Assembly: GCA_009703165.1 (NCBI GenBank)
Contig: WLGP01000010.1
Span: 1-12,026, forward strand
Origin: Actinomycetota bacterium
Lineage (GTDB): Bacteria > Actinomycetota > Actinomycetes > Nanopelagicales > Nanopelagicaceae
Direction: 5' to 3'
DNA length: 12,026 nt
Shown: one piece after another, positions 2 through 12,026 of the stretch
Layout of the letters: each line of letters starts with the position of its first letter
Position numbering within the stretch: position 1 is the first letter of the stretch
Position numbers and translations under genes: made by a program
The notes under the pieces: model-generated
Seen by the model: only the letters and a program-made list of their open reading frames with translations
Databases searched by the model: none
Told to the model about the DNA's origin: nothing

Positions 2-73
2 AAGAACCTTAAGAACTTTACGGCTCTAGCTACAGGTTCATTGCTTCCATTGCGCTCTGCGTCACTGGGATAA
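2..73 (+). CDS. C-terminal end of a probable peptide ABC transporter substrate-binding protein (partial)
   Basis: A reading frame enters from the left edge and runs 23 codons to a TAA at 71-73. The visible tail contains ATGSLLPLRSASLG. Peptide-binding proteins of the SBP_bac_5 (DppA/OppA) family commonly end in a similar short segment with a 'G-x-L-x-L-R-S' flavour. The next four genes encode a complete Dpp-type permease/ATPase set with no binding protein, so a dppA-like gene is what would be expected here. Only the tail is present, so the family call rests on position plus a short resemblance. Its ligand would probably be a di- or oligopeptide, possibly a murein peptide, given the downstream genes. 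Confidence 0.55.
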   Translation, partial: KNLKNFTALATGSLLPLRSASLG

Positions 74-85
74 ATTAATAAAGGT

Positions 86-121
86 ATGCGGTGCGCCGAA
101 ACGAGGGCTGGCGCACCGCAT
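86..121 (+). promoter_or_regulatory. Intercistronic hairpin between binding-protein gene and permease gene
   Basis: Positions 86-97 (ATGCGGTGCGCC) pair perfectly with 110-121 around a 12-nt loop, giving a 12-bp GC-rich stem. The sequence after the stem (TACCCTTTC) has no T-run, so this is not a classical intrinsic terminator. It sits 12 nt after the binding-protein stop and 34 nt before the permease start. A 3'-end stabiliser or partial terminator, allowing more binding protein than permease, is the likely role. The stem is seen directly; the role is inferred. Confidence 0.7.
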
Positions 122-155
122 TACCCTTTCATAAAGAATTAAGGAGAACCCTTAC

Positions 156-1121
156 GTGAAATCCAGACTGCGTTCGACAGTCTTCTTCACTCGCCTAGCG
201 AGTGTGCTCACAACACTCTTTGGCATCTCAATTTTCGTCTTCATCGTTCTTCGCGTTATCCCTGGCGATTCAATTACCGGTTCACTCGGAATTGAGACAG
301 GTGCACTGAACGAAGAACAGATTGCAGCGCTTAAGGTCTACTACGGCATCGACAAATCACTTGTCGGACAGTACTTCTCGTGGATGAGTTCATTCCTCTC
401 TGGAGATTTTGGCTTTGCCTACTCCAACGGAGTCTCTGTTCTTGAACTGACCAAATCCGCCCTCCCTGTCACCATTCAGCTAGCGCTCTTTGGAACGATC
501 TCTGGCGTCATTATCGGAATTAGCGTTGGCATGTTTAGCGCGAGCAAGCCAGGCAGCACCCGCGACTTTGCTGGACAATTCTTCGGACTACTCGCCTTGG
601 CAGTGCCAGGCTTTGTTTTAAGTACAACAATCGTCACCATCATGGCCAATAAATTTGGTTACTTTCCAAATGGCTACGAATACATGTCGCCATGGGAAGA
701 CCCATGGATGAATTTCCAGCAGATGATGTTTCCGGGCTTAGTTCTTGGAATTGCCGTTGCTGCGCCCGTAATGCGTACGACGCGTTCTGCCCTCCTTGAG
801 ACAGTCGATAAGGACTTTATCCGTACTGCTTACGGAAAAGGCGTTAAACATAAGATTGTTCAGTACAAGCATGTACTTCGTAACTCACTTATTCCGATCG
901 TGACCATGACAGGTATTCAATTCGGATACCTTCTTGGCGGCGCAGTTATCGTGGAGAAGATCTTTGCTATGCCAGGTATGGGGCGGCAAATCCTCGATGC
1001 GATCAATAAGCGCGAATACGCGACCGTACAAAGTAGCGTCATGATCTTCGCGATTATGTTCGTTCTTATCAATGTCATTACAGACATGGTTTACCGACGT
1101 ATAGATCCGAGAATCAAATGA
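156..1121 (+). CDS. dppB: Dipeptide/oligopeptide ABC transporter permease, DppB type
   Basis: This is the first membrane subunit of a peptide importer in the cytoplasmic membrane. The 321-residue length is normal for DppB/OppB. Hydrophobic segments lie at roughly residues 11-33, 105-128, 141-163, 190-208, 243-266 and 293-313, as expected for six membrane helices. The cytoplasmic coupling loop that contacts the ATPases is at about residues 220-247 (DFIRTAYGKGV... followed by LRNSLIP), typical of the family. The GTG start at 156 is chosen because AAGGAGA at 141-147 lies 8 nt upstream and the first helix begins at once, as in homologues. The stop overlaps the next start (ATGA, 1118-1121), so the genes are translationally coupled. 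The family is certain. The substrate (dipeptide, tripeptide or murein peptide) cannot be read from the permease; the downstream genes suggest murein peptides. Confidence 0.93.
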   Translation: MKSRLRSTVFFTRLASVLTTLFGISIFVFIVLRVIPGDSITGSLGIETGALNEEQIAALKVYYGIDKSLVGQYFSWMSSFLSGDFGFAYSNGVSVLELTKSALPVTIQLALFGTISGVIIGISVGMFSASKPGSTRDFAGQFFGLLALAVPGFVLSTTIVTIMANKFGYFPNGYEYMSPWEDPWMNFQQMMFPGLVLGIAVAAPVMRTTRSALLETVDKDFIRTAYGKGVKHKIVQYKHVLRNSLIPIVTMTGIQFGYLLGGAVIVEKIFAMPGMGRQILDAINKREYATVQSSVMIFAIMFVLINVITDMVYRRIDPRIK

Positions 1122-1960
1122 GAGAAAAGACCTGGTTTTCGTATTACCTCAAGAGCACCAGCGGAGTCGTTGGTGGCATCTTGGTACTCATCATGGTGGC
1201 AATTTCCCTGCTATCGGCGCTGGGAATCACACCTCACGATCCATTGATTCAAGATCCAATCAATGCGCTACAAGGTCCTTCATCCCAATATTGGTTTGGT
1301 ACTGATCAATTCGGTCGCGACATCTTGTCTCGCTGTATGGATGGAATGCGTAGATCCATGTTGGTCTCAATCGTTGCCGTCTCCATCGCAACTCTTGTCG
1401 GTGTCCTGATGGGTATCGTGGGCGGCTACTTCGGCAAAGTTCTCGATGGATTTGTCGTTCGCTTCAGCGATGTCATCTTCGCCTTCCCAGCAATTCTCTT
1501 GGCTCTTGCAATCGTTAATAGCCTTGGAAATTCTTGGATCGATACCTCGATTGCGATCGCAGTTGTCTACACACCAATCTTTATCCGTGTAGCCCGCGGC
1601 CCGGTCTTGAGCGTTAAAGAGATGGATTATGTAAAAGCGGTACGAATCCTTGGTTTTTCAACTCCTAAGGTCCTCTTTAGCCACATCTTGCCTAACGTTC
1701 TTCCACCGATTGTTATTCAGATTGCACTCTCTATGTCATGGGCAATTCTCACCGAATCTGGCTTGAGCTTCCTTGGCCTTGGAACACAGCCACCTGATGC
1801 CTCACTCGGTCTTATGGTTTCAGAGGCGCAATCACTTGCAGCCTTTGCATGGTGGACCCTTGCCTTCCCATCGCTCTTTATCACTATCGCAGTAGTTGGG
1901 CTCAACCTCGTTGGTGATGGTCTTCGTGACTCTTTGGACCCTGCAAGAAGGAGTTCATAA
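1118..1960 (+). CDS. dppC: Dipeptide/oligopeptide ABC transporter permease, DppC type
   Basis: This is the second membrane subunit, partner of the preceding permease. It has 280 residues with an N-terminal helix at about 14-37, an extracytoplasmic stretch containing the family motif WFGTDQFGRDILSR, then further helices. The ATPase-coupling loop starts near residue 170 (DYVKAVRILGF, then ILPNVLPPIVI). The segment ESGLSFLGLGTQPPDASLG near the C-terminus is a hallmark of DppC/OppC. The ATG at 1118 overlaps the upstream TGA, and the TAA at 1958-1960 shares one base with the next ATG, with AAGAAGGAG at 1945-1953 serving as ribosome site for that next gene. DppB and DppC together form the translocation pore. 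The family is certain and the transported peptide is inferred only from context. Confidence 0.93.
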   Translation: MREKTWFSYYLKSTSGVVGGILVLIMVAISLLSALGITPHDPLIQDPINALQGPSSQYWFGTDQFGRDILSRCMDGMRRSMLVSIVAVSIATLVGVLMGIVGGYFGKVLDGFVVRFSDVIFAFPAILLALAIVNSLGNSWIDTSIAIAVVYTPIFIRVARGPVLSVKEMDYVKAVRILGFSTPKVLFSHILPNVLPPIVIQIALSMSWAILTESGLSFLGLGTQPPDASLGLMVSEAQSLAAFAWWTLAFPSLFITIAVVGLNLVGDGLRDSLDPARRSS

Positions 1961-2928
1961 TGTCGAAGCCACTTATTGAAATTTCAAATCTCACAGTCAG
2001 CACCACTGACGATAACCGCACACTGGTCAACGATGTCTCATTTAGCATCGCCCCAGGAGAAGCAGTTGGCGTTGTAGGAGAGTCAGGATCTGGAAAGACT
2101 CTGACAGCACTCTCTCTTTTAGGTTTGTTACCTCGCGGAGTTCATGCCACATCAGGTTCGATTACATATGGCGGCAAAGATCTTCTCACTGCAGATAGAG
2201 AGACTTTGCGCTCGATTCGCGGTAACGAGATTGCCATGATCTACCAGGATCCAATGACTGCTCTTAACCCAGTCATGAAACTTGGCGCACAGCTGATTGA
2301 AGTTATCCAATCTCATGGTGGAGATACCAGCAATGCAATGGAGCGCGTCCTCACTGCATTTTCAGAGGTGGGAATTCCTGATCCAAAGCGTGCCTATGAG
2401 AGCTACCCACATGAATTCTCAGGTGGAATGCGCCAGCGCGTGATGATTGCAATGGCTTTGATCCTCTCGCCACAATTGTTGATCGCCGATGAGCCAACTA
2501 CCGCACTCGATGTAACAATCCAGCAGCAGATCCTCGCTCTTGTCATGCAAGAGCGACGTAAACGCAACATGTCGATGCTCTGGATTACCCACGATCTTGG
2601 AGTCGTTGCAAATCTTGTTGATCGCGTCATTGTTATGTATGCCGGACGTATCGTTGAGGTCGGTAGCGTGAAGGAAGTCTTCACCAACCCACAACACCCT
2701 TACACAGCAGGGCTTTTGGCATCTCTTCCTAAGGCCTCAGATAAGAACCGCACGCGTCTTCTCTCAATTCCTGGCATTCCACCTAAACCGTGGACCGTTG
2801 GAGAGAGCTGCGCCTTTAGCCCACGTTGTAGCAAAGCCGATCAACAGTGCAGATCATCACTTCCAGTACTTGCCACAAATACACATACAGATGCTGCATG
2901 TTTTCATCTGATGGGAGATAACTCATGA
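1960..2928 (+). CDS. dppD: Peptide ABC transporter ATP-binding protein, DppD type
   Basis: This is one of two cytoplasmic ATPases that power the peptide importer. The 322 residues contain a Walker A motif GESGSGKT at 40-47, a Q-loop IYQDP at 94-98, an ABC signature SGGMRQR at 154-160, and a Walker B ending in D177 with catalytic E178. The C-terminal oligopeptide-transport domain follows (NPQHPYTAGLLASLP). The tail then has cysteines spaced C-x5-C-x6-C plus a later C. In characterised DppD proteins this pattern holds a 4Fe-4S cluster. The ATG at 1960 shares one base with the upstream TAA and has a good ribosome site 6 nt away. It overlaps dppF by ATGA. All residues needed for ATP hydrolysis are present. 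DppD is the conventional name for the first of the paired ATPases. Confidence 0.94.
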   Translation: MSKPLIEISNLTVSTTDDNRTLVNDVSFSIAPGEAVGVVGESGSGKTLTALSLLGLLPRGVHATSGSITYGGKDLLTADRETLRSIRGNEIAMIYQDPMTALNPVMKLGAQLIEVIQSHGGDTSNAMERVLTAFSEVGIPDPKRAYESYPHEFSGGMRQRVMIAMALILSPQLLIADEPTTALDVTIQQQILALVMQERRKRNMSMLWITHDLGVVANLVDRVIVMYAGRIVEVGSVKEVFTNPQHPYTAGLLASLPKASDKNRTRLLSIPGIPPKPWTVGESCAFSPRCSKADQQCRSSLPVLATNTHTDAACFHLMGDNS

Positions 2929-3872
2929 CTCTTTCAATTACAGATGTCACAAAGCGCTACAAGATTCGAGTCACTCGCGCCCAAGTAAATGCGCTCAATG
3001 GAGTAACGATCGATCTTCCTGCAAAGAAGACCTTAGGTATTGTCGGCGAGAGCGGTTGTGGAAAATCAACTCTTGCTCGAATGATTGTCGGTCTTGAGCA
3101 ACCATCATCAGGAACGGTTACGTGGAACGGCGAACCAATCTTTGATAAAGCTCGCAATATGCTCTCGAGCAAGCACTCAAATATCCAACTGGTATTTCAG
3201 GATCCATACTCATCTCTCAACCCGCGCCAGAAGATTGGCGACTCGATCGCTGAAGTTCTTACAGTTCATCACCTTGTAGAGAAAGATGCAGTACAGGCAA
3301 GGATCGCTGAATTACTGACAGAGGTCGGAATTAGCCCAGAGCTGGCTCACCGCTACCCACATCAACTCTCTGGCGGACAGCGTCAACGTGTGAGCATCGC
3401 ACGCGCACTTGCATCGCAACCAGATCTCCTTGTTCTCGATGAACCGGTATCGGCACTTGATGTATCTGTACGTGCAGAGGTGATGAACCTTTTGATCGAC
3501 CTTCGTGAACGTTTAGGACTTACCTACATCTTTATCAGCCACGATCTCTCGATGATTCGCCACATCTCAGATCAGATCGCTGTGATGTATCTAGGAAAGA
3601 TTGTTGAATCTGGTCCATGGGATTCTGTCTTGGAAAATCCACAGCACCCATATACAAAGGCGTTGATTGCAGCGATGCCAGATCACACAGAGGTGGGAAA
3701 TAACGCCTACGAAGCACCACTCAAGGGCGAAGTTCCAGATCCTGCATCGATGCCAACAGGGTGCGCCTTCCATTTGCGTTGCCCGATAGCAGTTCCCTCA
3801 TGTTCAACCAACGCCCAAACGTTGCGCGAGATTGAGCCCAACCATCAGATCGCATGCCAGGAGGTTAAGTAG
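2925..3872 (+). CDS. dppF: Peptide ABC transporter ATP-binding protein, DppF type
   Basis: This is the second cytoplasmic ATPase of the importer, forming a heterodimer with the preceding one. The 315 residues contain Walker A GESGCGKST at 41-49, a Q-loop VFQDPYSSLNP, a signature LSGGQ at 148-152, and a Walker B ending D172 with E173, followed by the SALD D-loop. The C-terminal domain has the NPQHPYTKALIAAMP motif, then cysteines with the same C-x5-C-x6-C spacing as the partner and one more near the end (IACQEVK). The ATG at 2925 overlaps the upstream stop (ATGA). The TAG at 3870-3872 abuts the AnmK start directly, tying the importer to an amino-sugar kinase in one operon. The family is certain and the peptide substrate is inferred. 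Confidence 0.94.
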   Translation: MTLSITDVTKRYKIRVTRAQVNALNGVTIDLPAKKTLGIVGESGCGKSTLARMIVGLEQPSSGTVTWNGEPIFDKARNMLSSKHSNIQLVFQDPYSSLNPRQKIGDSIAEVLTVHHLVEKDAVQARIAELLTEVGISPELAHRYPHQLSGGQRQRVSIARALASQPDLLVLDEPVSALDVSVRAEVMNLLIDLRERLGLTYIFISHDLSMIRHISDQIAVMYLGKIVESGPWDSVLENPQHPYTKALIAAMPDHTEVGNNAYEAPLKGEVPDPASMPTGCAFHLRCPIAVPSCSTNAQTLREIEPNHQIACQEVK

Positions 3873-5039
3873 ATGAAAGTTATTGGAATGATCTCTGGAA
3901 CATCCTTTGATGGCATTGATGCCGGCTGCTATGAAATCTCAGTAAGCGATGGAGTAATGAGTGCTGAGCTCATTGGTTTTGAAAGTTATGAGTACCAAGA
4001 TCATGTACACGACCTGATCGCAAAGGCGATGCCACCTCAGATGACCGACCTTGAGACTGTCTGCATCCTAGATACTTACGTTGGCCAAGAATTTGCTCGC
4101 GCAGCAGTTGATCTCTCAAAACGACTTAACGTCACTGCAGATCTGATCGTCTCGCACGGTCAGACCGTCTATCACTGGATTGATAGCGACCATAAAGCGC
4201 GCGGAACGCTACAGATTGGCGAACCAACATGGATTGCAGAGGCAACTGGAGTCACAGTGCTTTCAAATATCCGCTCACGCGATGTTGTCGTCGGCGGACA
4301 TGGTGCACCCCTTGTGAGCATCTTGGATCAACTCTTACTTGGAGCTCACGACGAACCTGTTGCTGCGCTCAATCTTGGTGGAATTTCAAATGTAACCGTA
4401 ACTGGCAAAGGGTTAACGCCAATTGCCTATGACATTGGACCGGCAAATGGTCTCCTTGATGCCGCAATCTCTGCCTACACCAATGGCGCTTCTCATTACG
4501 ATGACGCCGGAAAGATTGCAGCGGCCGGAACAGTTAATCAAGAGATCTTAAAGAAACTTCTTGCAGAGCCTTACTACGCACTTTCTGCTCCAAAGTCGAC
4601 TGGCAAAGAGCTCTTCCACCTTCCATATATCACCGATCATTTTGGCGATATCTCAACGTGGAAGATCGAAGATGTGATGGCAACTTTGCTCGAACTCACA
4701 GTTGAGACAGTTGCTCTCGATGTTGAAAAATACAAAGTCTCACAACTCTTTGTTGCAGGAGGCGGTAGCGCCAACCCTGTGATGATGGCAGCACTTGCTG
4801 CACGCCTTGCACCTTGCGAAGTGCTAACAATGAGTTCACTTGGAGTAGATCCTCGCCAGAAAGAGGCGCTGGCATTTGCGATTATGGGTTATCTCTCAGC
4901 CCACGGTCAGCCAGGTTCGATTCCATCATGTACCGGTGCTGGCAAGGCGACAATTCTTGGATCATTTACTCCCGGAAGTGGCCCGCTACAACTTCCAGCA
5001 CCGCTTGCAACTGCGCCAACTAAACTCGTTATCGCCTAA
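3873..5039 (+). CDS. anmK: Anhydro-N-acetylmuramic acid kinase
   Basis: AnmK opens the 1,6-anhydro ring of anhydro-N-acetylmuramic acid and phosphorylates it with ATP to MurNAc-6-phosphate, a cytoplasmic step of murein recycling. At 388 residues it is of normal family length. The phosphate-loop motif GTSFDG is at 9-14, SHGQT at 94-98, GGHGAPLV at 141-148, NLGGISN at 167-173, a catalytic-Asp motif DIGPAN at 187-192 (D187), and GGGSANP at 296-302. Three positions differ from the pattern I know from E. coli (GGQGAP and DTGPGN): H143, I188 and A191. A strong ribosome site AGGAGG (3859-3864) lies 8 nt before the ATG, and the upstream stop ends at 3872, so the gene is coupled to the peptide importer. 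Its end overlaps the opposite-strand acetyltransferase by 4 nt. Family call firm; a shifted sugar preference is possible. Confidence 0.93.
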   Translation: MKVIGMISGTSFDGIDAGCYEISVSDGVMSAELIGFESYEYQDHVHDLIAKAMPPQMTDLETVCILDTYVGQEFARAAVDLSKRLNVTADLIVSHGQTVYHWIDSDHKARGTLQIGEPTWIAEATGVTVLSNIRSRDVVVGGHGAPLVSILDQLLLGAHDEPVAALNLGGISNVTVTGKGLTPIAYDIGPANGLLDAAISAYTNGASHYDDAGKIAAAGTVNQEILKKLLAEPYYALSAPKSTGKELFHLPYITDHFGDISTWKIEDVMATLLELTVETVALDVEKYKVSQLFVAGGGSANPVMMAALAARLAPCEVLTMSSLGVDPRQKEALAFAIMGYLSAHGQPGSIPSCTGAGKATILGSFTPGSGPLQLPAPLATAPTKLVIA

Positions 5040-5049
5040 ACGTTTAGGC
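5034..5049. repeat. 16-bp perfect palindrome at the convergent gene ends
   Basis: GCCTAAACGTTTAGGC reads the same on both strands. It contains the TAA stop of anmK (5037-5039) and the TAG stop of the opposite-strand acetyltransferase (5036-5038 on the plus strand). As RNA from either strand it could fold to a 6-bp stem with a 4-nt loop. There is no long T-run on either side, so it would be at most a weak bidirectional 3'-end element. It may simply reflect two stop codons facing each other. Confidence 0.5.
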
Positions 5050-5533
5050 TAGCAATGAGCTCTATCTCCAGCGCCGCCCATTCAGGTGTCGTTCGAGATT
5101 TTCCAGTCGGAGTAAATCCATTCTTGAGATATAAAGAATTAGCGATTTCATTATCTGCAAAGACCCACAAAGTCATCTGGGTAAATCCGCGCCCTGCAAT
5201 GCGATCCATCGCCTCGTGTAGCCCTTTCTTGCCAAAGCCACGGCCAGCAGATTCAGGATCTACATATAGCGAAAAGAGATGGCCGCGCGAGACATCATCT
5301 TTATCGCTACCGATTCGAAAGACTCCCACGATCTTCTCGTCATCGAGCAAGAGAAGAGTCTGCTTATCTCCTGGGGTTTCAATACTTGTGCGCCATAACT
5401 GCTCGGCACTTTCAGGCGTAAAGGATTCACGCGCACTTTCCGAGAGCACATTTGCATACGAGATAGTCCAACAACGCAAGAAGATTGCGGCGATTACAGG
5501 TAGATCATCAACTGTTGCATCCCTAAACTCCAT
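5036..5533 (-). CDS. GNAT-family N-acetyltransferase
   Basis: This is a 165-residue acetyl-CoA-dependent acetyltransferase of the GNAT superfamily, cytoplasmic. The acetyl-CoA pyrophosphate-binding motif (motif A) is visible as LYVDPESAGRGFGKKGLHE, with AGRGFG at 96-101. Motif B follows as LWVFADNEIANSLYLKNGF at about 122-140. The start is placed at the ATG whose complement is 5531-5533, giving MEFRDATVDDLP, the usual GNAT beginning. The open frame continues upstream to 5662 but would run antisense through the start of the epimerase gene. Only 12 bp separate this start from the epimerase ATG and I see no good ribosome site, so translation may be leaderless. It is the only minus-strand gene in the window, convergent with anmK (4-nt overlap) and divergent from the epimerase. 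The acetyl acceptor is unknown; a cell-wall amino sugar or peptide is only a guess from the neighbours. Confidence 0.85.
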   Translation of the reverse strand: MEFRDATVDDLPVIAAIFLRCWTISYANVLSESARESFTPESAEQLWRTSIETPGDKQTLLLLDDEKIVGVFRIGSDKDDVSRGHLFSLYVDPESAGRGFGKKGLHEAMDRIAGRGFTQMTLWVFADNEIANSLYLKNGFTPTGKSRTTPEWAALEIELIASLNV

Positions 5534-5545
5534 GGCGGTAAGTCT

Positions 5546-6565
5546 ATGAGTTCTCTCGACTTTACATTGGGTCGCCACGAAGTCACTTTGCGCGAACCAT
5601 TTATCACCGCCCTTCGCAGAGTTGAGCAGTATCCAGTCATCACATTTACCATCAGCGATCAATCTGGAAACTTTGGTGCTGGGGAAGCCGTTGCAACGCC
5701 AGCAATTGTGGGGGATTCACTTGAGGAGATCGAAAAGGATTTAACACAAGTCATCACACCAGCCTTGCGCAGTGTGACCGCACTTGATCAAGGACTTATG
5801 CAACTTGCAGAGGTAGGAGTTGCGCCAAGTAGTAGAGCAGCAGCAGATGTTGCGCTACGAAGTTACTTTGCCCATAAATCCGGTGCGACACTGGCTGCAT
5901 CGCTTTCGGTAACTACCAATCAGATTCGCACTGATGTAACTGTTCCAGTTGCAGAACCTGATGCTCTAGAAGAGATAGTTTCTCAACGACTGTCTCAAGG
6001 ATTTTCATCGCTCAAAGTTAAGTTAAAGAGTGAACCCTTGGAGAAGAATCTTGAAGTGATGAAGGTGATTTCTGGCCTGGTGCAAGGGCGAGCATCTCTA
6101 CGTGTCGATCCAAATCAGGCGTGGGACTTTGAATACAGTGCCGCTTTCCTGCAAGGCCTTGCAACGTTAGGAATCGAGATTGAATACCTTGAACAACCGG
6201 TAGGTAGGCACGAGATAGATGCACTCTCACAATTACAAAAGTTGAACTTAGCGCCAATCATGGCCGATGAGTCACTCTTTACACTGGGCGATCTTGAGAA
6301 GTTGCTCAAGGTAAAGGCCTGCACCTGGGTCAATGTAAAACTTCTTAAAAGTGGTGGCATCACACTCGCACTTGAGATTGCCCAGCGCGCTAGCGATGAA
6401 GGTCTCAAGGTCTCGATTGGAAGCATGATGGAAGGTGCCGGGGGAGTACATGCTGCAGCGCTATTGGCCGCAGCTATCGCGCCAGAGTTGATCCATGACC
6501 TTGATGCTGCGTGGTGGCATAGAGATAGCGCAATTGGCTATAGAGATGGTTGGCTAGCGCTATGA
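5546..6565 (+). CDS. Dipeptide epimerase of the enolase superfamily (L-Ala-D/L-Glu epimerase type)
   Basis: This enzyme probably inverts the second residue of murein-derived L-Ala-D-Glu, giving L-Ala-L-Glu that ordinary peptidases can cut. It has 339 residues, normal for the family. An N-terminal capping domain (LREPFITALRRVEQYP) precedes the barrel. Expected barrel residues are present: K157-V-K159, D188 (RVDPNQAWD), E216 (YLEQP), D241 (MADES) and K265 (NVKLLKSGG). The first lysine motif plus K265 supply the acid/base pair, and the acidic trio binds Mg2+. Near the C-terminus D318-L-D320 matches the D-x-D motif that binds the dipeptide amino group, which favours a dipeptide epimerase over muconate or succinylbenzoate enzymes. 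The ATG at 5546 fits homologues but has little ribosome site. It overlaps the following hydrolase by ATGA. Exact dipeptide preference is inferred from context. Confidence 0.9.
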   Translation: MSSLDFTLGRHEVTLREPFITALRRVEQYPVITFTISDQSGNFGAGEAVATPAIVGDSLEEIEKDLTQVITPALRSVTALDQGLMQLAEVGVAPSSRAAADVALRSYFAHKSGATLAASLSVTTNQIRTDVTVPVAEPDALEEIVSQRLSQGFSSLKVKLKSEPLEKNLEVMKVISGLVQGRASLRVDPNQAWDFEYSAAFLQGLATLGIEIEYLEQPVGRHEIDALSQLQKLNLAPIMADESLFTLGDLEKLLKVKACTWVNVKLLKSGGITLALEIAQRASDEGLKVSIGSMMEGAGGVHAAALLAAAIAPELIHDLDAAWWHRDSAIGYRDGWLAL

Positions 6566-7590
6566 CGCCAGGAAAAATATTCGCCTCAAGCATTGATGGT
6601 GTTAGGTCTATTGAGCGTGAAGGTTTACGTAATCTAGATCAGCCGGTTAATGAGAAGACAGCATGCGATCTTGGCTCTGTCACAAAGATAGTCTCGACAA
6701 CTTCCATCATTATGAAACTCGTTGAGAGTAAGACGATTGCAGTTACCGATCAGGTCGAGAGATATCTCCCTGAGTGGGCTAGTTATCAACGTGCAGGTGT
6801 AACAATCGGCGATCTCCTCGAACATCAATCTGGCCTACGTGAATGGCAGCCGCTCTACATTTCACAAGAAAATGGCGCGCAGGCTCGCCAAGTGATTGCC
6901 AAAGATGGATACGCTCATGGCTCTGGTCGCCACTATTCAGATTTGGGATTTATCACGCTAGGAAATGTGATTACCGAAGTTCTCGGAACTGATTTAGAGA
7001 GCGCCTTTAAAGAGTGGGTAAGTAATCCATTGGGATTGAAATCAACTCAATACCGCGCACCTATTGATCCCAGTGATGTCTTTGCCTCATCATTTGGAGA
7101 TCGCGCCGAAATAGAGATGATCAGAACTCAGATTCCATATAAGACAACTGAAACGTTAGAAGAATTTACCCAGTGGCGTGATCACATCTTGGAAGGCGAA
7201 GTCAATGATGGTAATTCTTTCCATCTCTACAAAGGCGTCAGTGGCCATGCTGGATTATTTTCAACTGCAGAAGATCTCCTCAAGTATGGAGAAGAGCTCT
7301 TATCTAGTCTGCATGGAGATGGATACTTTGATAGAAAAGTATTGGAATCTTTTCTTACTCCAGGGCGCGATCAGATGCAGGGACTCGGATTTAGAAATTG
7401 GATAGAGGCAGGCGAGATTGAGTATTGGGGACATACAGGCTTTCCTGGTGTAACCCTGGCTATATCACCCCATCGCAAGAACGTCCTTGTTCTCTTGAGC
7501 AATCGCTTGCTTACGGAAGAAACCCCGGAGAAGACTGAAGATATCTTCGCCGATTTTCGCTCTACGATGCGAAATCGTTATATTAAATAG
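6562..7590 (+). CDS. Serine hydrolase of the beta-lactamase class C / S12 peptidase family, cytoplasmic
   Basis: This 342-residue protein has the three active-site motifs of the beta-lactamase/penicillin-recognising fold: S39-V-T-K42 (S-x-x-K nucleophile), Y125-S-D127 (tyrosine motif, usually Y-x-N) and H291-T-G293 (equivalent of K-T-G; H-x-G is common in this family). VTIGDLLEHQSGL is the usual sequence between the first two. There is no signal peptide or membrane segment, so it should act in the cytoplasm, unlike resistance beta-lactamases or periplasmic DD-peptidases. The ATG at 6562 is chosen over an in-frame TTG at 6550 because it forms the ATGA overlap with the epimerase stop used elsewhere in this operon. 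As I recall, AmiE (YbbE), the MurNAc-L-Ala amidase in the Bacillus subtilis MurNAc operon, is a protein of this fold, so a muropeptide amidase or D-amino-acid peptidase is plausible. The substrate is not provable from sequence. Confidence 0.85.
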   Translation: MTPGKIFASSIDGVRSIEREGLRNLDQPVNEKTACDLGSVTKIVSTTSIIMKLVESKTIAVTDQVERYLPEWASYQRAGVTIGDLLEHQSGLREWQPLYISQENGAQARQVIAKDGYAHGSGRHYSDLGFITLGNVITEVLGTDLESAFKEWVSNPLGLKSTQYRAPIDPSDVFASSFGDRAEIEMIRTQIPYKTTETLEEFTQWRDHILEGEVNDGNSFHLYKGVSGHAGLFSTAEDLLKYGEELLSSLHGDGYFDRKVLESFLTPGRDQMQGLGFRNWIEAGEIEYWGHTGFPGVTLAISPHRKNVLVLLSNRLLTEETPEKTEDIFADFRSTMRNRYIK

Positions 7591-7685
7591 GTGTCTTTTC
7601 GGTGCCTGCCACCCCTATATTAATGGCAAGATTTTTCACAGACATTGCCGAGCAAGGAAATGTTTTTTCATGAAGGGGGTTGCAG
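7591..7685 (+). promoter_or_regulatory. Intergenic control region upstream of the MurR-type regulator
   Basis: This 95-bp gap is the widest gap in the window and the probable start of the second transcription unit. TATATT at 7616-7621 could serve as a -10 box; no convincing -35 lies upstream (TGTCTT at 7592-7597 is weak). Just downstream lie GGCAA at 7625-7629 and TTGCC at 7645-7649, an inverted pair whose centres are 20 bp apart. TTTTTCA occurs twice (7632-7638 and 7664-7670, 32 bp apart), the second copy overlapping the palindrome TTCATGAA (7667-7674). MurR/RpiR regulators often bind repeats beside their own gene, so these are operator candidates. No terminator for the preceding hydrolase gene is visible. 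Confidence 0.4.
7673..7679 (+). promoter_or_regulatory. Ribosome binding site deciding the regulator start
   Basis: AAGGGGG at 7673-7679 lies 6 nt before the GTG at 7686 and directly abuts an in-frame TTG at 7680. Normal spacing therefore favours the GTG as the start of the MurR/RpiR-type gene. Confidence 0.7.
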
Positions 7686-8636
7686 GTGGCTGATAAGCGC
7701 GAAAAGCACCCCATCTTCGGAGATCTCCTCGGCGAGATCGCAAATCAAATCCCTTCATTTCATGCAAGCGAAGTAGCGATCGCAGATGCAATCTTGAGCA
7801 ATCCCGAACTTGCATCAGGAATGAATATTTCGCAGATTGCAGATAAGAGCGGAACCTCTGTCGCATCTGTTGTCCGTTTCTGTAAGACGCTTGGATTTAA
7901 AGGTTATCCAGAGTTTCGCATGGCACTTATTGGCCAACTCAGCCGCCAAATTGCACAAGGTGCCGATCTTCAACTCGATGGCGGTATCACCGTTGATGAC
8001 TCTGCTGCAGAGGTAATTCGCAAGATCGCCTATGCCGACGCACTTGCCATTAAGACAACGGCAGAACGCCTCGATGTTGAGACATTTACCAAGACTGTAG
8101 ATATCTGGGAATCTGCCAGCACAATTGGAATTATCGGTTTTGCATCAAGTGGTTATGTGGCGATGGATCTACAACTCAAGCTCAATCGTCTCGGTAAGCG
8201 ATCTGTTGCCTGGTCTGATCTCCACACCGCACTTACATCCATCTCACTTTTGAAAAAAGGCGATGTACTTGTTGCAATCAGTCATAGCGGCACAACGCTA
8301 GACATTATTGATGTGATCTCTGAATTTAAAGAGAAGGGAATCACGATTGTTCTCATTACCAACGCACTACGTAGCCCAGCAACAGCAATCGCTGATCTAG
8401 TTCTCTTTACCTCTGCGCGCGAAACCACCTTGCGCAGTGGAGCAACGGCAAGTCGTATTGCCCAGTTAACGGTGGTTGATTGTCTCTGCGTCTCCCTGGC
8501 GCAGAGAAACTGGAGCGGCACCAAAGCTGCTCTAGATGAATCTAGATCGGCCGTGGGACGTCGTTCTGGAAAGAAATTGAGCGAAGTTGAAAAACCTCGT
8601 TCAAAACCTACATCCCGCTCTCGAGGAGGAAAATAA
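7686..8636 (+). CDS. MurR/RpiR-family transcriptional regulator
   Basis: This is a sugar-phosphate-sensing DNA-binding regulator of 316 residues. The N-terminal HTH_6 domain spans about 8-85, with the helix-turn-helix near 48-67 (ISQIADKSGTSVASVVRFC) and the family tail KTLGFKGYPEF. A SIS sugar-phosphate domain follows (about 125-260), with IGFASSGYVA and the phosphate-binding A197-I-S-H-S-G-T-T204. The last 30 or so residues are a basic, serine-rich tail (GRRSGKK, SKPTSRSRGGK) beyond the usual family end. The GTG at 7686 is chosen from ribosome-site spacing. The stop abuts the binding-protein start, so regulator and importer are co-transcribed and probably autoregulated. E. coli MurR senses MurNAc-6-phosphate, which is the AnmK product; this ligand fits the neighbourhood, but glucosamine-6-phosphate or another phosphosugar is possible. 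Confidence 0.9.
   Translation: MADKREKHPIFGDLLGEIANQIPSFHASEVAIADAILSNPELASGMNISQIADKSGTSVASVVRFCKTLGFKGYPEFRMALIGQLSRQIAQGADLQLDGGITVDDSAAEVIRKIAYADALAIKTTAERLDVETFTKTVDIWESASTIGIIGFASSGYVAMDLQLKLNRLGKRSVAWSDLHTALTSISLLKKGDVLVAISHSGTTLDIIDVISEFKEKGITIVLITNALRSPATAIADLVLFTSARETTLRSGATASRIAQLTVVDCLCVSLAQRNWSGTKAALDESRSAVGRRSGKKLSEVEKPRSKPTSRSRGGK
8623..8630 (+). promoter_or_regulatory. Strong ribosome binding site for the sugar-binding protein
   Basis: GAGGAGGA, inside the last codons of the regulator gene, lies 6 nt before the GTG at 8637. It is the strongest ribosome site in the window and fits high output of the binding protein. Confidence 0.75.
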
Positions 8637-9920
8637 GTGAAGATCTCACAACGCCGCGTACGCGGTTTGGTAGCTGCGGCAGTTGCTGCGTCAGTAATTG
8701 CTGGCCCAGTAATCGCTTCAATGCCAGCACAAGCAGCATCAGAACTCACATTCTGGAGCTGGCGCACAGAAGATAAGGCTTTCTATGAAGAACAACTAGG
8801 TATCTTCAAGGAAAAGACCGGAATCTCAGTTAAGTTCACGCCATATGTGAACACTGAATACAACGCAATCTTGTCTACAGCTCTTACAGCTGGAAGCGGA
8901 CCAGATGTTATGCAGGTCCGCCCATACGGTGGAATGGCTAACCTTTCAGATGCAGGTAACTTCCTAGCGCTTACCGCTGCGGATGTACCAGCACTTCGCA
9001 GAATGTCTCCTGGCGTACTTGCTGGAGTTCAGGGTTACACAGTGAAGAAGCAGTTCGGTCTTCCATACGCAACATCAGTCATTGGTGTTATGTACAACCC
9101 AGATCTTCTTAAGGAAGCTGGCGTTAAGGCTCTGCCATCAACATGGGATTCATTCCTACGCGTTCTTCAGCAGATCAAGTCAAAGGGAATCATTCCACTA
9201 GGTAACGCATCAGGAAATGCTCCAAGTCTTGAGCAGATGCACGCTGGAATCGGGCCAACCTTCTACGGTGGAACACAGTTCTTTAACGATGTCGTTAAGG
9301 GAACACGTACCTTTACTGATAAGAATTACGTCGCATCATTGCAGGCAGTTAAGGATCTCGTTCCTTTCATGCCAGCAAACCCAGCAGGCGTTGATTACAA
9401 CACCGCTCGCGGACTTTTCGCTAATGAAAAGGCTGCCTTCTACATCGGTGGAAACTATGAAATCTCATACTTCCGCTCACTCAACCCATCACTCAACGTT
9501 GCTTGGATGCCAGCACCAGCTGCTGCACCAGGTGCTAAGCGCTTTGTGACAACATGGGCAGATGGTGGCTTTGGTATCAACGCAAAGACCAAGGCAAAGC
9601 CAGAAGCAATCAAGCTTCTTAACTTCCTTGCTAGCAAGGAGTTCAACCAGGCAGCAGCAGATCAGCTCGGTTGGATCCCAACAGCTCCGTACATCAAGAT
9701 CACAGATCCTGCGATCGCAAAGATGTCGAAGTCACTAGCATCACAGGGCACACCATTCTTGAACGTAGTTGGTTTCCGTTTCGGAACACCTACTAGCTCA
9801 GCAATTTTGCAGCCAGGATTCCAGAAGCTCACTGCGGGTACAACAACAGCCGCAGAACTTGCTAAGGATGTCCAGGCAGCAGTTGCAACTTGGTACGCTC
9901 CACAAAAGGGTAAGTCCTAA
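8637..9920 (+). CDS. Extracellular sugar-binding protein of a CUT1 ABC importer
   Basis: This is the 427-residue solute-binding subunit (SBP_bac_1 family) that captures a sugar outside the membrane. The N-terminus is a Sec signal peptide: basic MKISQRRVRG, a hydrophobic run to about residue 28, and a type I cleavage site AQA|A after residue 33. The mature part begins ELTFWSWR and shows family traits: GPDVMQVRPYG, the hinge region GLPYATSVIGVMYNPDLLKEAG, and GFGINAKTKAKPEAIKLLNFL. There is no lipobox and no cysteine anywhere in the protein, so it is not an ordinary lipoprotein. The GTG start directly follows the regulator stop, with a strong ribosome site. Lysine is almost always AAG, suggesting selection for high expression. 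The ligand is unknown; with a MurR-type regulator beside it and AnmK nearby, a muramyl or GlcNAc sugar is likely. Confidence 0.9.
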   Translation: MKISQRRVRGLVAAAVAASVIAGPVIASMPAQAASELTFWSWRTEDKAFYEEQLGIFKEKTGISVKFTPYVNTEYNAILSTALTAGSGPDVMQVRPYGGMANLSDAGNFLALTAADVPALRRMSPGVLAGVQGYTVKKQFGLPYATSVIGVMYNPDLLKEAGVKALPSTWDSFLRVLQQIKSKGIIPLGNASGNAPSLEQMHAGIGPTFYGGTQFFNDVVKGTRTFTDKNYVASLQAVKDLVPFMPANPAGVDYNTARGLFANEKAAFYIGGNYEISYFRSLNPSLNVAWMPAPAAAPGAKRFVTTWADGGFGINAKTKAKPEAIKLLNFLASKEFNQAAADQLGWIPTAPYIKITDPAIAKMSKSLASQGTPFLNVVGFRFGTPTSSAILQPGFQKLTAGTTTAAELAKDVQAAVATWYAPQKGKS

Positions 9921-9929
9921 GAAATAGAG

Positions 9930-9979
9930 ATCGGGTGCGGAAAATTTTTTCCGCACCCGATTTTTCTTGTTTTGTTTTT
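9930..9979 (+). terminator. Intrinsic terminator after the sugar-binding protein gene
   Basis: The arm 9930-9944 (ATCGGGTGCGGAAAA) pairs perfectly with 9947-9961, giving a stem of up to 15 bp. A T-rich tract (TTTTCTTGTTTTGTTTTT) follows at 9962-9979. This is a textbook Rho-independent terminator. It begins 9 nt after the binding-protein stop and lies within the operon, before the permease genes, so read-through must occur for the permeases to be expressed unless a separate promoter exists. I see no clear promoter between 9980 and the next start. Confidence 0.9.
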
Positions 9980-10002
9980 GCTATCTGAGAAGAGGAATGT
10001 AA

Positions 10003-10923
10003 GTGAAGCTCAGCGGTATTAAGAGAGAGCAACGTAAATTTCGTTGGCTCCTGCTCTCTCCAGGATTATTGATTATTATTATCTTTACCAGCGTCCCTGC
10101 GCTGACAACACTGAGTTACGCCTTCTTTGAGTGGAAGGGCTTCGTCCGTGGTTCATGGGCTGGCTTTACCAACTTCGAACGCCTCTTCACCTTCCCTTTC
10201 AGAGATCAATTCTTTATGGCATTTCGCCACAATGTTCTTGTCTTTATAGGAATTATGATTTTGCAGACATCTCTTGGTCTGCTCATCGCATATGCACTCT
10301 TTAATCTTCAGAGAGGTCAACGATTCTTTAGAACAGTTACCTTCCTTCCAGTTATCTTCTCTCTGGTAATCGTGGGCTATATGTGGCAGATCATCCTTGA
10401 TCCGTACTACGGCCCAATTAACTTGATCGTAGGAGAGCTGGGACAACCAACCTGGGCGCGGGCATGGCTCGGCGATACAGCAACAGCCCTTCCTACACTT
10501 GTCTTTATCAACTTATGGCGCTGGGTCGGATTCCCAGCAATCATCTTCTTGGCCGGACTTAATGCGATCAGCACCGATTACATCGAAGCCGCCCGCATTG
10601 ATGGAGCATCTGAAGGAAAGATCTTTAGAAAGATTCTCTTCCCACTTCTTGCCCCATCGATGACGATCATCACGATCCTCACATTTATCGGAGCCTTTGA
10701 ATGGTTTGATCTCCCATACATTCTGGGTGGATCTAATGGCTCTCCCGCCGGAGCTACAGATACTTTGGCGCTGATGTTCTATCGCCTCTCATTTGGTTCA
10801 GTTGATTCTGGCGCCAACGAAGTTGGTGTGGGTTCAGCACTCGGTGTAATTATCTTTACCGTTGTAGGAGTAGGCGCTGCCGTCGGTTCTAAATTACTGC
10901 GTCGCAGAGAGGTGGAGATGTAA
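10003..10923 (+). CDS. Sugar ABC transporter permease, CUT1 family (MalF/UgpA type)
   Basis: This is the first membrane subunit of the sugar importer, 306 residues. The first helix is at about 14-36 (WLLLSPGLLIIIIFTSVPAL), and hydrophobic segments recur to the C-terminus, as expected for six helices. The EAA loop that docks the ATPase starts at E195 (EAARIDGASEGKIFRKI, then LFPLLAPS), an excellent match to the CUT1 consensus. The GTG at 10003 is preceded by AGAAGAGGA at 9988-9996 with about 6 nt spacing; the nearby ATG at 9998 is closed at once by TAA. The gene follows the terminator-like hairpin, so it is probably expressed below the binding protein. Its TAA at 10921-10923 abuts the start of the second permease. 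The imported sugar cannot be read from the permease itself. Confidence 0.93.
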   Translation: MKLSGIKREQRKFRWLLLSPGLLIIIIFTSVPALTTLSYAFFEWKGFVRGSWAGFTNFERLFTFPFRDQFFMAFRHNVLVFIGIMILQTSLGLLIAYALFNLQRGQRFFRTVTFLPVIFSLVIVGYMWQIILDPYYGPINLIVGELGQPTWARAWLGDTATALPTLVFINLWRWVGFPAIIFLAGLNAISTDYIEAARIDGASEGKIFRKILFPLLAPSMTIITILTFIGAFEWFDLPYILGGSNGSPAGATDTLALMFYRLSFGSVDSGANEVGVGSALGVIIFTVVGVGAAVGSKLLRRREVEM

Positions 10924-11748
10924 ATGAAACTCTTCATGTCAAAGACATTCTTCCGCGGAGTCTTGATTGTCAACGCCATCGTGATCTTGCTTCCGGTTCT
11001 CTTCCTTGTCAACTCAAGCCTTCGTGAGACAAATGATTTTGCACGAACGCCACTCAAACTTGCAACAGATCCTGCATGGAGTAACTTCGCGTCAGTCTGG
11101 CAAGACGGTAACTTTGCGATCTACCTAAAGAATTCAATCCTTGTCACCGGTGGTTCGCTGATCCTAATTCTTGTCTGCGCACTTGGTGCAGGCTTTGTTC
11201 TAGGTCGTTATGAGTTCCGCGGCCATAGCTTGATCATGGCCTTCGTCCTTTCAGGAATGTTAGTTCCGGCAAAACTTGCGATCCTCCCACTCTTTATCCA
11301 GCTCAAGTGGATGCACCTGCTCAACTCCCATCTAGGTCTGATCTTGGTCTATGCCGCAGGCGCACTTCCTGCTGCGATATTTATTATGAGTGGCTTCTTT
11401 AGATCACTTCCTGCAGATCTAGATAACGCAGCCCGAATCGATGGGGCATCTGAATTCCAACTCTTACGTCGAGTCCTCATGCCACTAGTCCGACCAGGAC
11501 TTGCGATCGTTGCAATCTACTCAGCAATTCCAATCTGGAATGACTTCTTCCTGCCCCTTGTATTCCTACAAGATCCTGAGAAGAAGACGATCATGCAGGG
11601 GTTGACGATGTTCTTTGGTCAGTACTCATCACAATGGGGAGTCCTCTTTGCAGGCCTGACTATGGCAGCCCTTCCTCTGATCGTTCTCTATCTCATTCTC
11701 TCTGAGCAATTCATTAAGGGGCTTACCGCCGGTGCTGTGAAAGGCTAG
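10924..11748 (+). CDS. Sugar ABC transporter permease, CUT1 family (MalG/UgpE type)
   Basis: This is the second membrane subunit, 274 residues, typical for MalG/UgpE-like proteins. A first helix is at about 12-32 (VNAIVILLPVLFLVNSSL), and the motif FVLGRYEFRG and further helices follow. The EAA loop appears as N168-AARIDGASEFQLLRR, followed by VLMPLVRPGL. The ATG at 10924 directly follows the upstream TAA, with GAGAGGTGGAG just before it as ribosome site. Together with the preceding permease it forms the pore of a carbohydrate importer. No ATPase gene follows. Many actinobacterial CUT1 systems borrow a shared MsiK-type ATPase encoded elsewhere, and that is the likely explanation. Confidence 0.93.
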   Translation: MKLFMSKTFFRGVLIVNAIVILLPVLFLVNSSLRETNDFARTPLKLATDPAWSNFASVWQDGNFAIYLKNSILVTGGSLILILVCALGAGFVLGRYEFRGHSLIMAFVLSGMLVPAKLAILPLFIQLKWMHLLNSHLGLILVYAAGALPAAIFIMSGFFRSLPADLDNAARIDGASEFQLLRRVLMPLVRPGLAIVAIYSAIPIWNDFFLPLVFLQDPEKKTIMQGLTMFFGQYSSQWGVLFAGLTMAALPLIVLYLILSEQFIKGLTAGAVKG

Positions 11749-11752
11749 GCAT

Positions 11753-12026
11753 ATGGCTTTTCTAGGAATTGATGCCGGCGCCTCATCGGCTAAGTGGGCG
11801 TTGGCAGATGAGAGCTCAATCGTGCTCACGGGAGTTACTGGACCAATCGATGGCCATATCACTCGGAGTGAATCACTTGAGCGGATGCAGAAGAATCTGG
11901 CGCAGATAAAGTCTGAGTGTTCACAGAGTATTGATCACGTAGTAATCGGCATTACTGGAATCGCAGAGACTCCTGCAGAGCGCGCGCAGACACTTAAGGT
12001 CATCGCAGATGTATTTACCGATTCCA
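11753..12026 (+). CDS. BadF/BadG-type sugar kinase, probable GlcNAc/MurNAc kinase (5' part)
   Basis: This open frame begins at ATG 11753, 4 nt after the permease stop, with AAAGG at 11740-11744 as ribosome site, and runs off the right edge after 91 codons. The beginning MAFLGIDAGASSAKWALAD is the first phosphate-binding motif of the ASKHA fold (usually GIDGGGTKTK in this family). VVIGITGIAE at about 63-72 fits the second strand-and-loop element. The BadF/BadG/BcrA/BcrD family contains N-acetylglucosamine kinases and Clostridium MurK, which phosphorylates both MurNAc and GlcNAc. Next to a MurR-type regulator, a sugar importer and AnmK, an amino-sugar kinase is the best reading. Most of the protein is missing, so substrate residues cannot be checked. 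Confidence 0.75.
   Translation, partial: MAFLGIDAGASSAKWALADESSIVLTGVTGPIDGHITRSESLERMQKNLAQIKSECSQSIDHVVIGITGIAETPAERAQTLKVIADVFTDS

Follow-up and report, generated by a model that had tools for sequence, protein, structure and literature searches.

The window analyzed here, the whole 12,026-bp stretch of DNA, is an entire contig (C2) of a 65% complete metagenome-assembled genome (MAG) of 968 kb in 153 contigs. It carries a peptide-type and a sugar-type importer with a set of amino sugar and peptide enzymes and a MurR-type regulator, and from gene identities, gene order, co-occurrence across genomes and a promoter motif common to both importers we are confident, short of certainty, that it represents a MurR-controlled locus for the muramic acid of peptidoglycan, with two import arms arranged around one core. 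A sequence-only reading of the same DNA had described a two-importer locus for muropeptide use and was largely right, with the ligands and the scavenging purpose as its conjectural part; every gene that it named is present, and a GNAT acetyltransferase gene on the minus strand (5036-5530) had been overlooked. The features, in order of position, are:

2..73 (+), 3' end (last ~24 codons) of oppA, family-5 peptide-binding protein; remainder on contig C62
86..121 (+), stem-loop between oppA and oppB, perfect 12-nt inverted repeat (86-97/110-121)
156..1121 (+), oppB permease (PF00528, PF19300)
1118..1960 (+), oppC permease (PF00528)
1960..2928 (+), oppD ATPase (PF00005 + PF08352)
2925..3872 (+), oppF ATPase (PF00005 + PF08352)
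3873..5039 (+), anmK, anhydro-N-acetylmuramic acid kinase (NF007146 496.6 bits, Pfam AnmK 348 bits)
5036..5530 (-), GNAT acetyltransferase, start approximate (PF00583)
5546..6565 (+), dipeptide epimerase, putatively of the L-Ala-D/L-Glu type (1jpm 138 bits, D-x-D)
6550..7590 (+), S12 serine hydrolase, candidate cytoplasmic (anhydro)muramoyl-L-alanine amidase (PF00144 147 bits)
7625..7640 (+), operator-like site 1, degenerate (3 mismatches vs family consensus)
7656..7671 (+), operator-like site 2, 15 bp past site 1 (1 mismatch)
7680..8636 (+), murR-type RpiR regulator (PF01418 + PF01380)
8637..9920 (+), sugA, CUT1 sugar-binding protein (PF01547, ortholog distribution)
9923..9968 (+), stem-loop between sugA and sugB, 22-nt inverted repeat, 86%
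10003..10923 (+), sugB permease (PF00528)
10924..11748 (+), sugC permease (PF00528)
11753..12026 (+), badF-type sugar kinase, first 91 codons, candidate N-acetylmuramic acid (MurNAc) kinase (full L021 ortholog matches PF01869)

The permeases and ATPases of the peptide importer lie in the window as claimed earlier, and its binding protein is represented there only by the last ~24 codons. Another contig of this MAG, C62, supplies the remainder; it reads clpC-murQ-oppA and ends in 149 bases identical to positions 1-149 of the window. The oppA of C62 (L131:77-1606, minus strand) scores 255 bits against SBP_bac_5, and its murQ (genome G000) scores 378.9 bits against TIGR00274, over the cut-off of 302; the murQ partner anticipated by the sequence-only reading is therefore found directly upstream, on an overlapping contig.

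The CUT1 importer stands with a binding protein and two permeases (8637-11748). Neither the window nor the related locus L021, described below, shows a second ATPase gene for it, and it probably borrows a shared ATPase encoded elsewhere. Nor do the annotated genes of the window and L021 include a phosphotransferase system (PTS) transporter, a genome-wide search not having been made. The regulator has the expected HTH_6 and SIS domains (PF01418 and PF01380); its score stays under the NCBIfam cut-off for MurR (138.6 vs 408), and on sequence we call it MurR-type only. Its start is annotated at TTG 7680, and comparison of the upstream regions of relatives makes GTG 7686 the likelier one. The BadF kinase call holds through the full L021 copy, which matches PF01869, and not through the 91 codons in the window, which have no Pfam or NCBIfam match at E 0.001.

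Strong hairpins separate each binding-protein gene from its permease gene (86-121 and 9923-9968) and possibly raise binding-protein mRNA above permease mRNA; a similar oppA-oppB hairpin is present in L021, as judged by eye.

Gene order in relatives and distribution across the family

The nearest relative found, L021 (WLHB01000003; AnmK 87% identical), has the order clpC, murQ, oppABCDF, anmK, GNAT, epimerase, S12, murR, sugABC, badF, GlcD-like oxidase and mutY. The nagA and nagB genes that the sequence-only reading proposed to look for nearby have counterparts in L023 and L029, where nagA and a gene for a NagB-II-like deaminase adjoin the locus, with the L023 nagA and the L023 and L029 deaminases (those scanned) below NCBIfam cut-offs; the MAG itself yields a NagA fragment at a contig edge (145 bits).

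For a wider comparison, the best 80 of the 136 AnmK loci found were taken with at most 10 kb on each side, some with less, and 66 of them were sorted as outside the family (L037, titled Streptomycetaceae, was counted inside, its coordinates matching those of family genome G142). At E 1e-7 and 45% coverage, criteria that make the counts roughly lower bounds, the 66 outside loci contain relatives of oppB (50), oppC (49), oppA, S12 and murR (48 each), murQ (42), oppF (35), GNAT (22), oppD (21) and the epimerase (16). Relatives of sugA and badF are found in none of them, and sugC-like and sugB-like permeases, 27-32% identical, in four and two, respectively. Of the loci seen, then, only those of the family combine the sugar arm with an adjacent peptide arm, and the neighborhood is kept within the family; the peptide arm also occurs in other Actinobacteria and in two Chloroflexota MAGs.

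Distribution was assessed across a sample of 151 genomes of the same family, with AnmK as the marker of the peptide arm and SugA, counted at E 1e-80 or better, as that of the sugar arm. AnmK is found in 17 genomes, SugA orthologs in 21 and murQ in 27 (26 over the cut-off, plus G128, with the gene in two pieces on two contigs). Every murQ genome carries at least one arm: 7 have AnmK only, 10 SugA only, 10 both and none neither. Among the 124 genomes without murQ, AnmK is found in none and sugA in one (G065). The association of at least one arm with murQ (27/27 against 1/124) corresponds to a Fisher p of 5e-29 with related genomes treated as independent. Because the order recurs in relatives and the presence of an arm goes with murQ, the arrangement is far beyond chance; the locus is an accessory trait, held by 27 of the 151 sampled genomes.

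Either arm also occurs by itself. Nine of the 10 sugar-only genomes have murQ-murR-sugABC-badF contiguous, and the contig of the tenth (G116) ends in murR; with this gene content, BadF is the only producer of MurNAc-6-phosphate visible there. G003 and G109 carry murQ and murR with no arm other than the peptide arm; in peptide-only genomes the one such producer visible in the locus is AnmK. In a MurQ tree the arm types are mixed within clades, and one well-supported pairing (g1-g4) is too little for a history.

The gap between clpC and mutY/radA is the site of the locus in L021, L137-L139, L142 with L143, and L144, with the peptide arm, the sugar arm or both inside; L131 covers the clpC side only, and other relatives carry the locus elsewhere. 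Divergence between the window and L021 is uneven. Identity is only 56-69% for the GNAT, epimerase, S12 and BadF proteins, against 86-94% for AnmK, both transporters and MurR; the proportion of synonymous differences (pS) is low for murR (0.56) and sugA (0.40) and 0.63-0.85 for the other genes compared, GNAT being left out. This pattern could reflect rapid evolution of the enzymes, biased codon use or a mosaic make-up of the locus.

A paired operator-like site before both arms

The regions upstream of murR, oppA and sugA have a paired, dyad-like site in common, consisting of GGCRATNATTTTCAYC, 15 bp, and then TGAARNNNTTTTTCAY, in which GGCRATNATTTTCAYC occupies the position expected for a -10 box after TTGAC. 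The pair is present in 29 of 31 picked regions with a total of 0-5 mismatches, and the spacing between centers is 29.5 in 27 of the 29. In the two regions without it, murR lies close behind S12 (L023 and L144), and the oppA of both loci has the pair. It is found in none of six further oppA regions, initially left out: oppA lies directly behind murR in three (L029, L031 and L037) and behind a badF gene in two (L026 and L032), and L022 is uninformative, its contig beginning only 70 bases upstream of oppA.

A scan of both strands of 34 sequences, in which some genomes appear twice (e.g., as L029 and L142), gave 31 pairs, of which 28 are at these promoters and 3 elsewhere, and none in one mononucleotide shuffle. 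When the 151 genomes were scanned with 25 informative positions and at most three mismatches, 29 sites were found in 25 genomes, all of them murQ-positive, against 2 hits for a reversed-pattern control; placed individually, the sites are immediately upstream of murR in 20 cases, of oppA in 8 and of sugA in 1. None of the 124 murQ-negative genomes has the pair at that threshold. Because the motif was partly derived from these genomes, the telling result is its absence from the 124 others and from elsewhere in the carriers. Only the paired site across many loci is significant: in single-site scans, the window alone gave three matches, a number reached in 33 of 200 shuffles, and L021 gave six, reached in 15 of 100. 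In this MAG, the copy before oppA on C62 has three mismatches.

Together, the shared promoter and the co-occurrence suggest that the two arms belong to a single MurR regulon and lead to the same point, MurNAc-6-phosphate and MurQ; in this regulon MurR would bind the tandem sites.

Proposed pathway and its alternatives

In the pathway that we propose, OppABCDF would import muramoyl peptides, probably 1,6-anhydroMurNAc-peptides, and the cytoplasmic S12 hydrolase would sever the sugar from L-alanine, replacing AmpD or AmiE. AnmK would convert the anhydro sugar to MurNAc-6-phosphate, and the epimerase would turn L-Ala-D-Glu into L-Ala-L-Glu for ordinary peptidases. On the sugar side, the CUT1 importer would take up free MurNAc, which the BadF kinase would phosphorylate to MurNAc-6-phosphate, replacing the PTS protein MurP. 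The arms would meet at MurQ, expected to split MurNAc-6-phosphate into D-lactate and N-acetylglucosamine (GlcNAc)-6-phosphate for NagA and NagB, and the MurR-type repressor would act via the tandem operator before oppA, murR or sugA.

Of the peptide-arm enzymes, AnmK is full length and lies above the NF007146 equivalog cut-off (496.6 vs 440 bits), in agreement with the earlier call. In the PDB it scores higher against AnmK (3cqy, 212 bits) than against levoglucosan kinase (164 bits), its DIGPAN motif is present in 81 of 81 aligned sequences, and it is predicted to phosphorylate 1,6-anhydroMurNAc. The best solved relative of the epimerase is the L-Ala-D/L-Glu epimerase 1jpm (138 bits), which we take to be the Bacillus enzyme. 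The catalytic lysine pair and metal ligands of the enolase superfamily are conserved: all 28 aligned epimerase sequences have K-x-K, a second lysine, D-x-N, EQP, D-x-D and an arginine at position 24, and 23 have ADES, with ADEA or VDET in the other 5; Arg24 and D-x-D presumably contact the substrate. The call of a D-x-D dipeptide epimerase is thereby upheld, with the cut-off of a named NCBIfam epimerase equivalog not reached (121 bits vs 500), and we assign the protein to no named subfamily. The S12 hydrolase (PF00144) has SxxK and H-x-G in 61 of 61 aligned sequences and Y-S-D in 59 of 61. The SxxK serine is at residue 43 in the window protein, which leaves no room for a signal peptide, and we infer a cytoplasmic location, as the sequence-only reading had. 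It would cleave between MurNAc and L-alanine in the role of AmpD or of AmiE, the latter a member of the beta-lactamase family; there is no amidase-named relative among the 60 solved sequences listed.

As to the sugar arm, a search of solved structures with two full-length BadF orthologs placed the MurNAc/GlcNAc kinase 8zo3 first (L021, 67 bits; L138, 86 bits). In the available text of PMC10465942, the MurNAc specificity of Tannerella MurK is attributed to a non-bulky loop and to a residue other than Asn before the catalytic Asp. At the MurK specificity positions, the 14 murQ-linked BadF copies examined all have Gly-Gly-Trp and Ser, Thr or Ile, a pattern that is only suggestive of MurNAc specificity, and the nanE-linked paralog in L032 has Asn before the catalytic Asp. 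In that locus (L032:3128-4665), a divergent sugar arm with nanE and another BadF kinase adjoins the peptide arm; it perhaps serves N-acetylmannosamine.

A number of observations weigh against this pathway. The ligands assigned to the two binding proteins are putative. Scores of the epimerase, S12, MurR and CUT1 proteins against named NCBIfam equivalogs stay below cut-off, as does that of BadF. The kinase 8zo3, whose name covers both MurNAc and GlcNAc, itself has Asn before the catalytic Asp, which makes the residue argument for MurNAc specificity weak. Two murQ genomes, G048 and G128, have no operator site at three mismatches (in L022, whose coordinates match those of G048, a pair with 14 instead of 15 bp between its sites follows S12), and the murR copy in the window is degenerate, with four mismatches and no TTGAC box. 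The co-occurrence figures count related genomes as independent, and many of the genomes are incomplete. In G065, sugA sits at a contig edge and no murQ is over the cut-off; the sugA of G128 is a relative at 43% identity whose matching public locus, L032, has the sugar arm beside nanE, and it may serve another (amino) sugar. Lastly, nagZ and namZ, which the sequence-only reading proposed to look for, are rare and not found, respectively. No member of glycoside hydrolase family 3 (GH3, the NagZ family) is found in G000, which is 65% complete. GH3 matches occur in only 2 of the 17 AnmK-bearing genomes (a 750-residue open frame in one case) and in 13 of the 151 overall, a difference that is not significant; NamZ is in none of the 151. 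With GH3 this rare and NamZ not found, disaccharide fragments would not be split in the usual way. Probably the imported fragments are monosaccharide-based, or another glycosidase acts.

The alternative that survives best, if still unlikely, is that the locus serves to recycle the cell's own wall and not to scavenge the debris of others. MltG, whose action on the glycan of its own cell produces anhydro ends, is nearly universal here (143/151 genomes), so the own wall could yield such ends. Streptomyces, also an actinobacterium, recycles MurNAc through MurQ, according to the available text of PMC5061867. Wall turnover is general, yet murQ is found in only 27 of the 151 family genomes. The Rpf lytic enzyme family, a candidate source of anhydroMurNAc, is found in none of the 17 AnmK carriers and in 5 of 151 overall, and was rejected in that role. 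We tentatively retain scavenging as the purpose.

Mpl, a candidate for peptide re-ligation, is over the cut-off in none of the 151 genomes, and weaker matches are probably MurC; the peptides would thus probably be degraded and not reused whole, which fits breakdown for food. A modified MurNAc probe gave only background labelling of Microbacterium foliorum, according to the available text of the preprint PMC13041923. This result need not conflict with the model, because several other Microbacterium loci have the peptide arm without the sugar arm; some Microbacterium AnmK loci are without the peptide arm.

Less probable again is a peptide arm that imports only murein peptides or ordinary oligopeptides, leaving AnmK to handle internal anhydroMurNAc. 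In E. coli, Opp is known to import murein tripeptide together with MppA. The nearest solved relatives of OppA include, by name, opine, peptide, haem and nickel binders, with the chains of the murein-peptide-binding protein scoring lower (55 bits). This explanation sits poorly with the 66 distant loci, in most of which oppABC accompanies AnmK, MurQ and S12, and with peptide-only genomes such as G003, where the locus has no importer besides the peptide arm; import of muramoyl peptides remains the preferred reading.

We give still less credence to a sugar arm that imports GlcNAc or chito-oligosaccharides and merely shares the regulator. A GlcNAc/chitobiose binder is among the named NCBIfam matches of its binding protein, at a weak 43 bits (cut-off near 400), the BadF protein matches NCBIfam only as a GlcNAc kinase (90 bits against a cut-off of 370), and the divergent sugar arm of L032 sits with nanE. 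However, a NagA match (E 1e-30) is present in 54 of the 124 murQ-negative genomes, yet sugA in only one (G065), and uptake of GlcNAc alone would leave MurQ in the sugar-only genomes with no MurNAc-6-phosphate source visible in the locus. The sugar arm also stands under the same operator-like promoter, even where sugA is apart from murR (L037 = G142), and MurNAc remains its favored substrate.

Least probable is that the epimerase and GNAT form a DgcA-like N-acetyl-D-glutamate route in place of dipeptide epimerization: DgcA is the top NCBIfam match of the epimerase (131.7 bits, cut-off 400) and the GNAT gene adjoins it, but the top solved relative is an L-Ala-D/L-Glu epimerase, D-x-D is invariant in the 28 aligned sequences, and GNAT also occurs in loci without a detected epimerase.

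The GNAT gene itself is antisense between anmK and the epimerase gene here but runs on the same strand in many Microbacteriaceae; the Chloroflexota locus L056 has it next to nagA. A possible role is the re-acetylation of de-N-acetylated amino sugars, as is reportedly carried out by GlmA of C. acetobutylicum.

Comparison with known systems

With E. coli muropeptide recycling and MurP/MurR, the locus has in common AnmK, MurQ, a MurR-type regulator and probably NagA downstream. Unlike E. coli, which uses AmpG, NagZ, AmpD and the PTS protein MurP, it has ATP-binding cassette (ABC) importers and a putative replacement of AmpD by the S12 hydrolase, all in a single locus, and GH3/NagZ is not found in 15 of 17 AnmK carriers. 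The Bacillus subtilis operon murQ-murR-murP-amiE-nagZ-ybbC, as given in the available text of PMC5061867, resembles it in placing murQ, murR and a candidate beta-lactamase-family amidase together; the present locus differs in being without PTS, NagZ and NamZ, in a hydrolase without a signal peptide, and in the addition of AnmK, the epimerase and two ABC importers.

The MurK kinase of Clostridium acetobutylicum, of a family related to that of BadF, is likewise said to act on MurNAc. Tannerella MurK offers the same kind of parallel, the action on MurNAc being that described for MurK in the available text of PMC10465942; BadF differs in scoring only 67-86 bits against 8zo3 and in being joined to a CUT1 importer and MurQ. 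Agrobacterium YejBEF-YepA, in the part of PMC9790009 available, is a peptide-type ABC system that serves as a muropeptide importer, as we infer for OppABCDF; the subunit set and the phylum are different, and here the importer genes are linked in one locus to anmK and murQ. Among Actinobacteria, the Streptomyces coelicolor genes SCO4305-4308 likewise combine murQ with a MurR-like regulator and no MurP, and no importer is named for that murR-murQ cluster in the available text of PMC5061867.

For mycobacteria, the 2026 preprint PMC13041923 posits, in its available text, MurNAc uptake "by an unknown transporter" and reports no MurP in the Mycobacteriales tested; S. coelicolor is likewise without a MurP ortholog, per the available text of PMC5061867. 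The present locus, from another actinobacterial order, nominates two candidate importers, a kinase, an amidase and an operator. We lean toward the view that CUT1 with BadF is an ABC-type MurNAc route and Opp with S12 and AnmK an anhydromuropeptide route, that these are the missing uptake systems of Actinobacteria without MurP, and that they are modules swapped around a MurQ-MurR core under one tandem operator. The parts are of known kinds. In literature searches, which covered few subscription papers, no title or abstract among the matches listed describes the locus, its pair of ABC routes or the operator common to both. The locus also suggests how wall debris might provide part of the diet of some streamlined lake bacteria.

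A gene for a GlcD-like flavin adenine dinucleotide (FAD) oxidase (L021:18738-20090) flanks the locus in several genomes. As a candidate D-lactate oxidase it is partly supported, being present in 11 of 27 murQ-positive and also in 8 of 124 murQ-negative genomes, and it might burn the D-lactate released by MurQ.

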